Assembly (NCBI RefSeq): GCF_907163105.1
Contig: NZ_OU015321.1
Location: 2,371,001-2,435,000 of the forward strand
Source: Cloacibacterium caeni
Lineage (GTDB): Bacteria; Bacteroidota; Bacteroidia; Flavobacteriales; Weeksellaceae
Length of the DNA stretch: 64,000 nt
Direction: 5' to 3'
Positions 12,060 through 15,412 of the stretch are shown here, in pieces. The stretch's first letter is position 1, and each line of letters begins with the position of its first letter. The position numbers were made by a program, and so were the translations under genes. The notes under the pieces were generated by a model. That model saw only the letters and a list, made by a program, of their open reading frames with translations. It did no database searches and was not told where the DNA came from.

Positions 12060-12100
12060 TCTTGTCTAAAAAAGAAATCTACACAGATAATCAAATAAAT

Positions 12101-12763
12101 ATGAAGAAAAGAGTTTTGCTAAGTTTGGTTGCAATTATTTCCATCTTCTCGTTGCAATCTTGTGTAACAAACTACGTTGTTTCTACACCTACAAAATACA
12201 AATCTAGTACCAAACTAGATAAAATAAATACTAAAAATCTAAATTCTGCGAGCAAAAGTTCTTATGATAGCTATAATGCAACTTTTGAAATGGCAAAAAA
12301 ATCAGAAATGGCTGCTTTGATTACGGGAGCGATTTCTCATGCTAAAACGATTGATGATATTCTAAGTGAAGCGAATACATATCTTGGAACACCATACAGA
12401 TTTGGTGGTTCTACCAGAAGTGGAATAGATTGTTCAGCATTCGTTTTAAACGTTTATGAAGAAACTACAGGTTTAGAATTGCCAAGAGTAGCGGCAGAAC
12501 AAGCTGAGCTAGGAGAAAGAGTAGAGAGACAGCAATTGCAAAAAGGAGATTTAGTTTTCTTTGCGCACAACAGAAGAATCTCTCACGTAGGAATAGTACA
12601 AGAAGTTACACCAGAAGGAGAAATTAAATTTATTCATGCAGCTACTTCTAGAGGTGTTATGGTTTCTTCACTTAATGATTCTTATTGGGGACCAAAATAT
12701 AGATTTGCCAAAAGAATTCTAAAAGAAGATCAAAATATTGCTACTGCAGAAGCAACGAATTAA
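12101..12763 (+). CDS. NlpC/P60-family cell-wall hydrolase lipoprotein
   Basis: A 220-residue lipoprotein. The start at 12101 gives a signal peptide ending in the lipobox LQSC (Cys21); an earlier TTG would spoil it. After a 60-residue linker the papain-like NlpC/P60 domain (about 85-210) shows the catalytic Cys in GIDCSAF (Cys111), His162 in SHVGIV and a third polar residue His179 in FIHAAT. Such enzymes cut D-glutamyl-diaminopimelate or similar bonds in peptidoglycan, probably from the outer membrane here. It lies opposite the elongation operon and originally shared a terminator region with rodA. Confidence 0.88.
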   Translation: MKKRVLLSLVAIISIFSLQSCVTNYVVSTPTKYKSSTKLDKINTKNLNSASKSSYDSYNATFEMAKKSEMAALITGAISHAKTIDDILSEANTYLGTPYRFGGSTRSGIDCSAFVLNVYEETTGLELPRVAAEQAELGERVERQQLQKGDLVFFAHNRRISHVGIVQEVTPEGEIKFIHAATSRGVMVSSLNDSYWGPKYRFAKRILKEDQNIATAEATN

Positions 12764-12790: not shown

Positions 12791-12826
12791 AAAAAACCTC
12801 CGCAACTAGTTGCGGAGGTTTTTTTA
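12791..12826 (+). terminator. Strong terminator after NlpC/P60, symmetric
   Basis: A near-perfect palindrome (AACCTCCGCAA and TTGCGGAGGTT around CTAG) is flanked by six A and by seven T, so it can stop transcription from both sides. Before the insertion sequence arrived it would have lain only a few bases beyond the rodA stop codon and could have served rodA as well. Confidence 0.9.
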
Positions 12827-12869
12827 TTTATGTCTTGTCCTGAAAAAAGTTGACTAAAAATTAGATAAT

Positions 12870-13244
12870 ATGTCAACAAAAAAGAAAATTTCAAAAATTC
12901 CAATTGCCCCACAAATTTATAGCGAAGCATTTAAACGTCAAGTTGTAAGTGAATTTGAGAGGGGTTTATTTACTAAAGCAGAACTTCGAAGACGTTACAA
13001 TATTCAAGGCAATAGTTGTCTACCAAGATGGTTAAAAAAATATGGTAAATTTACCTATGAAGATAAATTAACTATTGGTCGTCCTATGAAAGATCCTCAA
13101 CAACAGCGTATAAAAGAGCTAGAGGCTCAATTAGCAAAAAAAGAAGAAGAATTAAAAGTATTCAAACGATTTATTGAAATAGCTGAACGTGAGCTTAAAA
13201 TTGATATTGTAAAAAAGTCTGGTTCCAAGCAGTTGAAGAAATAA
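12870..13244 (+). CDS. IS3-family transposase OrfA (helix-turn-helix)
   Basis: A 124-residue basic protein. Residues about 14-60 form the DNA-binding helix-turn-helix (YSEAFKRQVVSEFERG then KAELRRRYNIQGNSCLPRWLKKYG). Residues about 80-110 form a short coiled coil rich in E and K, which serves multimerisation. Near its end the sequence A AAA AAG (13211-13217) is in the phase needed for -1 slippage into OrfB. Confidence 0.9.
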   Translation: MSTKKKISKIPIAPQIYSEAFKRQVVSEFERGLFTKAELRRRYNIQGNSCLPRWLKKYGKFTYEDKLTIGRPMKDPQQQRIKELEAQLAKKEEELKVFKRFIEIAERELKIDIVKKSGSKQLKK

Positions 13245-14137
13245 ATGTAAATAGTTCATTGACTATTTATGAGTTATGCGAACTGTTTGGATACACAAAA
13301 CAAGCATTTTACAAGCGAAAGTCAAAGGTAAAAACGCCTAAATACAACTCAGAATTATTACGAAGTTTAGTAGTTACTATTCGTAAGCAATTACCCCGAA
13401 CAGGTGGCAAGAAACTTTATGTAATGTTACAAGATGAATTTATAAAACATCATATATCAATTGGTCGGGATCATTTTTTAGATTTTTTAAAAGCCGAATA
13501 TTTACAAGTACCTAAAGTTCGAAGATATTACAAAACAACAAACTCAAGACATTGGATGAAACGCTATCCAAATTTAATTAGCAATTTTGTACTTAACAGA
13601 CCTGAGCAAGTTTGGGTTGCTGATATAACTTATTTACGAACAAAAGAGAAAACATACTATTTGCATTTACTCACTGATGCTTGTTCCAAGAAAATCGTTG
13701 GTTATCAACTGTCAGATAATTTAATGAGTTCAACTACAGTAAAAGCTTTAGAAATGGCTTTGATTAACAGGGAAACAAAAAATCAACTCATTCACCATTC
13801 TGATAGAGGTTTACAATATTGCAGTAAAGAGTATACCGAATTGTTAAAGAAAAACAATATTTTAATTAGTATGACGCAAGAATACGACCCGTATGAAAAT
13901 GCAGTAGCAGAAAGAGTAAATGGAATTTTAAAAGAAGAATTTGGTTTACATGAAATATTTGAAAACTATCAAAATTTAAACAAACAAGTTACACAAGCCA
14001 TAACTTTATACAACAATTTTAGAATACATATGTCAATTAATATGATAACTCCAAACCAAGCGCATCAACAAAAAACAATACAATTAAAACAATGGAAAAA
14101 AATAAATCGTAACAGAATTAATTCTGCTACGATTTAA
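13205..14137 (+). CDS. IS3-family transposase OrfB (DDE integrase core)
   Basis: The retroviral-integrase-like catalytic half. The frame opens at 13205; the first possible initiation codon is a TTG at 13259, but synthesis as an OrfAB fusion by frameshifting is more likely. It has the HTH_21-like region (VTIRKQLPRTGGKKLYVML) and the catalytic triad: Asp in VWVADITYL, Asp in HHSDRGLQY and Glu in ENAVAERVNGILKEE, with spacing as in DD(35)E enzymes. There are no stops or gaps. The stop at 14137 is 45 bases from the right end. Confidence 0.92.
   Translation, partial: YCKKVWFQAVEEINVNSSLTIYELCELFGYTKQAFYKRKSKVKTPKYNSELLRSLVVTIRKQLPRTGGKKLYVMLQDEFIKHHISIGRDHFLDFLKAEYLQVPKVRRYYKTTNSRHWMKRYPNLISNFVLNRPEQVWVADITYLRTKEKTYYLHLLTDACSKKIVGYQLSDNLMSSTTVKALEMALINRETKNQLIHHSDRGLQYCSKEYTELLKKNNILISMTQEYDPYENAVAERVNGILKEEFGLHEIFENYQNLNKQVTQAITLYNNFRIHMSINMITPNQAHQQKTIQLKQWKKINRNRINSATI
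13211..13217 (+). promoter_or_regulatory. Programmed -1 frameshift site (A AAA AAG)
   Basis: The heptamer is in phase with OrfA codons AAA AAG. The OrfB frame is open from 13205, upstream of the heptamer, so slippage gives a continuous OrfAB protein reading ...KKVWFQAVEEI. This is the classical arrangement for IS3 transposase production. Confidence 0.75.
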
Positions 14138-14182
14138 CTATATTTGAATTATTAACGAGTCAACCTTTTTTAGGACAACTCA

Positions 14183-15412
14183 TTATACGAGTGAATTCTT
14201 ATCTGCGTAATTTAATTTAAAGAAAATAGCGGTCATAATAGAGAATGCTAAAAGAGAACTCCCTCCATAACTGAAATAAGGTAGTGGAATTCCCACTGTA
14301 GGAAATAGTCCCATTACCATTCCTAAATTGATGGAAAAGTGCATGAGTAATATTCCAGCAAAACAATAACCGAAAACTCGGTTAAAAGTATTTTTTTGAG
14401 TTTCGGCTAAGTAAAATATTCTCCCGATATAAATGGCATAAAATAACACCAAAAGAAAACTTCCGAAGAAGCCCCATTCTTCTCCCACAGTACAGAAAAT
14501 GTAATCTGTCTCTTGTTCAGGAACGAACTTTCCTTGTGTTACAGAACCTTGCATGTACCCTTTTCCAAAAAAACCACCAGAACCAATAGCCGTTTTAGAA
14601 TACAATAAGTTATAACCAGAAGTATCTCGGAAAGCTTTTTCACCTTTGTAGAGAACTTCTATTCTTTCTCGCTGATGCTTTGGTAGTTTTTCCATGATTT
14701 TTGGAGTTCCAAAACTGATGCCGGCTAAAATTCCTAAGCTTCCGACAATGGTGACTATCGTAGGAACGCTCCAATGAATTTTTTGATAATTAAAGAGAAT
14801 GAAAATGAGGACTAAACCTACTAGAACTCCAGTAATGTAAAGAGGATTAAACGCAATCGACAAAAGAAAAACAGCTGCTAAAACAAATCCTACTATAAAT
14901 AGCCAACCATTTAATCCTTCTCTGTATAAAGCAATCGCAAACGCAGTAAATACTAATAATGAACCTACATCTGGAATGGATAAAACAACTAAAGCTGGCA
15001 CTCCAATAATAGCTAAAACCGTCAACTGTGATTTTCTCATTTTCAGATTAAAATCAGGTCCAGAAACGTAATTGGCGAGCATAAGTGCTGTCCCGATTTT
15101 TGCAAATTCAACGGGTTGCATGGTAAAACCGCCAAACTTGTACCAGTTTTTTTGACCTAAAATTTCAGTTCCAAAAACATGTAAACCTGCTAATGAAAGG
15201 ACGCCCAATATGAAAAAAATTCCCGCAAAGTTTTCAAAAAACTTTGTTCTCATAGTGAAAATTACAAGTCCTACCACGAGTGAAATTCCAAAAAATATAA
15301 ATTGTTTGGTTCCTAATCCTTCATCTACACTATAAATATTTGCTATTGCAAAAAGTGAAATAGCCAAGTATAGAAAAATGCCAAGTTTATCAATTCCTTC
15401 TGCCCATTTCAT
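14183..15412 (-). CDS. rodA: Rod-shape SEDS glycosyltransferase RodA
   Basis: A 409-residue inner-membrane protein of the SEDS family with about ten hydrophobic segments. It polymerises lipid II into glycan strands during elongation, in complex with PBP2 encoded just upstream. Family hallmarks are GQKNWYKFGGFTMQPVEFAK, the periplasmic loop region around KHQRERIEVL, EWGFFGS and the C-terminal GLFPTVGIPLPYFSYGGSS. It is the last gene of the mreB-mreC-mreD-mrdA-rodA unit, 3 bases after mrdA. Its stop codon TAA is part of the target duplication of the IS3 element, which has separated it from the terminator at 12791-12826. Confidence 0.95.
   Translation of the reverse strand: MKWAEGIDKLGIFLYLAISLFAIANIYSVDEGLGTKQFIFFGISLVVGLVIFTMRTKFFENFAGIFFILGVLSLAGLHVFGTEILGQKNWYKFGGFTMQPVEFAKIGTALMLANYVSGPDFNLKMRKSQLTVLAIIGVPALVVLSIPDVGSLLVFTAFAIALYREGLNGWLFIVGFVLAAVFLLSIAFNPLYITGVLVGLVLIFILFNYQKIHWSVPTIVTIVGSLGILAGISFGTPKIMEKLPKHQRERIEVLYKGEKAFRDTSGYNLLYSKTAIGSGGFFGKGYMQGSVTQGKFVPEQETDYIFCTVGEEWGFFGSFLLVLFYAIYIGRIFYLAETQKNTFNRVFGYCFAGILLMHFSINLGMVMGLFPTVGIPLPYFSYGGSSLLAFSIMTAIFFKLNYADKNSLV

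Follow-up and report, generated by a model that had tools for sequence, protein, structure and literature searches.

The locus between the NlpC/P60 gene and rodA

The window, i.e. the whole stretch of 64,000 nucleotides of Cloacibacterium caeni DNA that was analysed, contains an insertion sequence lodged between two convergent genes. The gene on its left is a plus-strand open reading frame of the NlpC/P60 type at 12062-12763 (Pfam NLPC_P60, 8.6e-29), and the gene on its right is rodA, on the minus strand at 14183-15412 (Pfam FTSW_RODA_SPOVE, 4.6e-65). The terminator common to both genes is a bidirectional intrinsic terminator at 12791-12824, which was recognised by inverted-repeat and consensus scans as well as by folding, and which represents the target of the insertion. 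Its arms are perfect over 17 nt and fold at -21.1 and -21.6 kcal/mol on the two strands (z -6.0 and -7.7). The left end of the element lies 23 bp from the dyad of this palindrome.

The element itself spans 12831-14182 on the plus strand and is 1352 bp long. Alignment with the other genomic copies places both ends at identical positions in all seven, with 0-9 differences among them. The left terminal inverted repeat (12831-12855, plus strand) faces the terminator and matches the right one (14158-14182, minus strand) at 21 of 25 positions; the repeats end in TG...CA and the target duplication is 3 bp long, which fits the IS3 family with its duplications of 3-4 bp. Two overlapping frames follow each other. 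The first, orfA (12870-13244, plus strand), has no Pfam match to a helix-turn-helix domain and a partial match to NCBIfam transpos_IS3 (2.8e-11) that stays below the cut-off. The second, orfB (13247-14137, plus strand), encodes a DDE transposase with an rve-type domain (Pfam rve, 1.1e-24), the motifs WVADITY, HSDRG and ERVNG, D35E spacing, and a match to NCBIfam transpos_IS3 of 238.8 bits against a cut-off of 160 (1.1e-70). As orfB lies in the -1 frame relative to orfA, and the slippery heptamer A AAA AAG stands in the orfA frame at 13211-13217 (plus strand), a -1 frameshift yielding an open fusion of 422 aa is a candidate mode of expression, judged from the sequence only. A promoter scan inside the element revealed no excess, with 7 found against 8.5 expected.

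The sequence-only reading had assigned the element to the IS3 family, had noticed TTA on both sides with the right-hand copy forming the rodA stop codon, and had concluded that the insertion preserved this stop while moving the symmetric terminator 1.35 kb away. All of this holds. The family assignment agrees with the rve-type DDE domain, the transpos_IS3 match, the inverted repeats and the 3-bp duplication; 12828-12830 and 14183-14185 both read TTA, and the latter is the TAA of the minus-strand frame. The comparison with related genomes that it had proposed was carried out, and the empty site was found in two sister genomes, G005 (L036) and G006 (L039), each with exactly one TTA. On the rodA strand the empty site reads ...ACTCGTA TAA ATAAAAAAACCTCCGCAACTAGTTGCGGAGG..., which equals the flanks in the window minus one TTA. 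The 3-bp target duplication TTA is thus genuine, and before the insertion the rodA stop was directly followed by the terminator. The coincidence of duplication and stop codon, considered at first as the main point, was set aside and looks incidental: other copies use other triplets, the feature common to them is the terminator, and here the terminator happens to abut the stop.

Terminator hairpins beside the other copies likewise predate insertion, being host DNA that is present in the empty sites of sister genomes. The joined flanks of L003 (left) and L002 (right) are contiguous in G005, G002, G001 and G006, those of L002 (left) and L001 (right) in G003 and G004, and those of L006 in G001, with the hairpin included in every case. 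The copies L001-L003 have no matching duplications because they recombined with each other, as the cross-paired flanks in the sisters reveal, and the lack of duplications was therefore rejected as an argument against IS3-type insertion. The flanks of L005 are likewise not contiguous in relatives.

Two observations concern the fate of copies after insertion. The swapped flanks of L001, L002 and L003 mark the element as a substrate of chromosomal rearrangement in its own genome. Additionally, two copies lie end to end in G001 (L021/L023, G001:C1:253944-256390), one opening with an inverted repeat of the right-end type and the other truncated, and the joint looks like a product of recombination or aborted transposition.

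Position of related copies relative to terminators

In the genome of the window, six of the seven copies are located directly 3' of a GC-rich intrinsic-terminator hairpin and its T tract, with the left end pointing inward each time. For the rodA/NlpC terminator, the sister genome G002 has an independent second copy at the opposite flank, where it separates the palindrome from the NlpC gene; its duplication is ACT and its left end again faces the palindrome. With OrfB as query, relatives were detected in 54 of 320 genomes of the family. From these, 100 loci were fetched and both ends were found in 88 (12 were dropped); one further copy at a contig edge was set aside, and the remaining 87 together with 12 copies of the window's own subfamily make up the 99 used for flank counts. 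A hairpin with a score of at least 20 within 45 nt is present in 69/99 left flanks, in 5/99 right flanks, and in 3/99 and 2/99 of the distal controls. A matching hairpin at the right distance occurs by chance at 15 of 7798 random window positions, and at 16 of 912 positions lying 5-95 nt past the stops of long open reading frames. Of the 88 related copies with both ends, 73 carry direct repeats of 3 bp or more, as counted by hand. Targeting of terminators is thus strongly supported by the comparative evidence.

The arrangement recurs in further genomes. Flavobacteria bacterium BAL38 (nine copies) and a Flavobacteriia metagenome-assembled genome (one copy) have the element after a terminator in 10/10 cases. 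Inspection by eye found it in a Sphingobacteriaceae metagenome-assembled genome, Pedobacter fastidiosus and Flammeovirga pacifica and, within a class-level sample of 28 loci, at six of them (L239, L241-L244, L249). It is not universal among relatives, as a supported clade of 1408-1573-bp elements shows no terminator targeting, and terminator targeting is distributed patchily over the OrfB tree, with 13 changes that stem partly from noisy single-copy rows.

Some relatives have habits of their own. A 1569-bp element in G002 (L126-L130; 47% OrfB identity) has a terminator at neither end in 5/5 copies and is devoid of a right-end hairpin. More distant relatives (L186-L188 in G289, L202, L204, L213, L216) lie near CGTTRNNC-like motifs, which we take to resemble integron attC sites, another hairpin-forming target.

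The distance from the dyad to the junction is characteristic of each subfamily. For the 1350-bp subfamily, to which the window copy belongs, it amounts to 22.75±0.77 bp (38 copies with a hairpin, 11 without), for the 1308-bp subfamily to 24.59±0.88 bp (16 with, 6 without) and for the 1385-bp subfamily to 27.61±1.25 bp (35 with, 9 without). Hairpins with the dyad at least 35 bp from the junction were excluded, such as that of L015, which at 45.5 bp is the hairpin of a neighbouring element. The spacing is nearly independent of half-stem length (slopes 0.19, -0.03 and 0.05 in the three subfamilies).

Among the alternatives, the one that fares best holds that the transposase recognises the T tract, or AT-rich DNA following a GC block, instead of the hairpin. 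Thirty of the 99 left flanks fall under the hairpin threshold; some of them carry a weak hairpin at the expected position (L096, L100, L144 and L181 are examples), and others have a T tract alone (L005, L108, L131, L148) or nothing (L112, L124, L183). The hairpin-less copies L005, L108, L114, L122, L131 and L148 carry T5-T9 at about -14 to -8, and both ancestral flanks of L005 contain T6 and no stem, so the T tract may contribute or even suffice. Against this reading, the distance to the dyad scatters less in each of the three subfamilies than the distance to any of the T-tract reference points (start, middle or end). When it was compared with the distance to the first of these in 5000 bootstraps per subfamily, it was the less variable one in 4976, 4022 and 4873 of them. 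Moreover, seven copies with a hairpin but no T4 run keep the spacing. Regressed on the separation between dyad and T start, the spacing has slopes of 0.01, 0.33 and 0.26, which makes the subfamily of the window copy the one that follows the dyad rule most cleanly. On balance, sensing of the T tract in place of the palindrome is improbable.

A second IS3 branch bears on another candidate guide, RNA polymerase. The genomes G001 and G002 also harbour an element of the IS150 group, with matches at 40 places and an OrfB that shares 58% identity with InsK of E. coli. When 30 loci were fetched (L298-L327) and ends were found in 29, 28 of the 29 proved to interrupt the loop of a terminator-like hairpin (offset -1.0±1.3), with a 3-bp duplication in 22/29. 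This element and that of the window are both IS3 members in one genus with terminators as targets, but the former splits the loop, and the OrfB proteins are only ~31% identical over 165 aa. Two IS3 branches thus use terminators in the same genus, at different offsets.

Guidance by a polymerase paused at, or released from, the terminator would account for the left end being on the T-tract side, at a distance that may be comparable to the polymerase footprint. It is nevertheless quite unlikely, since insertions occur on both sides of the bidirectional rodA/NlpC terminator, and the IS150-group element found in this genus is inserted right into the loop. Furthermore, L101, which has an A tract upstream and no T tract and would terminate the opposite strand only, still keeps a spacing of 23.5 bp.

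The antisense hairpin at the right end

The right end of the element contains a near-perfect 17-nt inverted repeat at 14103-14136, overlooked in the sequence-only reading. On the rodA strand the hairpin (14136-14103) is followed by T7 at 14102-14096, so that the whole feature, a terminator-like structure on the minus strand at 14096-14136, is the predicted end for rodA transcripts. The hairpin begins 47 nt beyond the stop codon of rodA, and orfB reaches into it with its last ~35 nt only. It folds at -17.9 kcal/mol (z -8.5); the original terminator has a value of -21.6 kcal/mol (z -7.7) on the same strand. The consensus scan rated both hairpins as terminator-like, with 5 such sites in the window against 0.5 expected. 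The efficiency of the element hairpin as a terminator is uncertain, because it is AT-rich and includes 4 G-C pairs.

This feature is constant among the targeting elements. An antisense hairpin with a T tract occurs in the last 150 nt of 25/25, 8/8 and 21/21 elements of the three subfamilies (54/54 sampled), and in 1/6 and 0/3 of non-targeting relatives (1/9). L167 and L142 were filed by length under the wrong subfamily in this survey, which leaves the totals the same. The stem sequences are unrelated, and the retention of structure without sequence suggests a function. Service as a terminator of the transposase itself was considered and rejected, as the sense strand offers only a loose T-rich tail, in 31/54 elements against 54/54 for the antisense strand.

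With the original terminator moved 1.35 kb away, the rodA operon mRNA had been proposed to extend antisense through the transposase gene and to dampen transposition. This consequence is very doubtful, given the antisense hairpin and T7 at 47 nt past the rodA stop, with its -17.9 kcal/mol and z of -8.5, and the presence of such a terminator in all 54 elements surveyed. If the hairpin works, the rodA transcript should end ~87 nt past the stop instead of ~45, which lengthens the 3' UTR by ~40 nt; antisense transcription should end at the edge of the element, and rodA should have swapped one terminator for another. The original observation is confirmed, its proposed consequence is unlikely, and the underlying phenomenon is more interesting than had been stated.

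Terminator choice, known systems and significance

The best explanation, and very probably the correct one, is a Bacteroidota clade of IS3 elements whose transposase selects intrinsic terminators at a subfamily-specific distance from the dyad and which carries a terminator of its own at the right end. The pattern of targeting is observed directly in the copies; that a protein reads the target is what we infer from it. Random or merely AT-preferring insertion, with selection sparing copies in harmless places beyond terminators, is hardly credible: sites between convergent genes are indeed tolerated and some copies do lie outside terminators, but selection does not fix the orientation relative to a symmetric palindrome, nor does it hold the spacing of two subfamilies to <1 bp around values that differ between them; the right flanks show no hairpin signal, and of the 912 positions past long-ORF stops only 16 match.

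According to the clade-wide explanation, the element inserts about 23, 25 or 28 bp from the dyad, always with its left end toward the palindrome, and makes a 3-bp duplication. The ruler would most likely be the palindrome itself, either as an extruded hairpin or cruciform or as a two-fold symmetric site. Since each element brings a hairpin and T tract near its right end that read against the transposase, an inserted copy has the host terminator at its left border and the one it carries at its right border. The gene upstream would retain the terminator it had, a replacement would be provided for a convergent gene downstream (here rodA), and read-in transcription would probably be kept from the transposase on both sides. 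The neighbouring genes should consequently be little disturbed by insertion.

A more ambitious version, in which we place slightly more belief than doubt, envisages a broad IS3 clade across Bacteroidota with structure-specific target capture, subfamily rulers and an evolved replacement antisense terminator, giving near-neutral insertion and an insulated transposase. The transposase (or OrfA) would measure from the dyad of any terminator palindrome, and the second IS3 branch in the same genus would independently use the same targets at zero offset.

By the features tested, the clade belongs to the IS3 family. Its OrfB is 30% identical over 163 aa to InsK of IS150, which forms a very long branch on the tree, and 27% over 275 aa to InsF of IS3. 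Among the matches listed, those with an IS name are plasmid-borne elements called ISSen1-like by PGAP, with ~42% OrfB identity. Group IIC introns are said to insert after terminator stem-loops in a fixed orientation; they are retroelement ribozymes, not DDE transposases. Hairpin targets are also described for IS1272/TnSha1 of the IS1182 family, which select hairpins, several of them confirmed terminators, without primary sequence specificity, and insert in both orientations through a blunt stem cut that removes part of the hairpin and leaves no target duplication (PMC4923244). Compared with that account, the present elements have another transposase family, a 3-bp duplication, an intact terminator, a fixed dyad offset and orientation, and their own terminator. 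Within the IS3 family, IS1397, ISKpn1 and ISPsy8 target REP palindromes, and ISPsy8 makes a 3-bp duplication at the symmetry axis of the REP hairpin, as described in PMC1525189. Family and palindromic target are alike, but the insertion here is placed 23-28 bp beyond the axis of terminators; individual junctions lie 21-30 bp from the dyad, and the stems are unrelated in sequence. A search of the openly licensed PMC literature found no paper on IS3 elements targeting terminators, which is weak evidence of absence; the papers searched likewise yielded no match for the target, the offset, the rule of orientation or the replacement terminator.

How DDE transposases choose their targets is poorly understood. 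The closely comparable proteins of these elements offer natural rulers of 23, 25, 28 and 0 bp from a palindrome, which makes the targeting determinant testable. The finding also carries a warning that terminators beside such elements are insertion sites and not accidents. Furthermore, choosing terminators and carrying one of its own provides a way for an insertion sequence to spread with little harm: both genes that flank a bidirectional terminator would still have one, and the transposase would be shielded.
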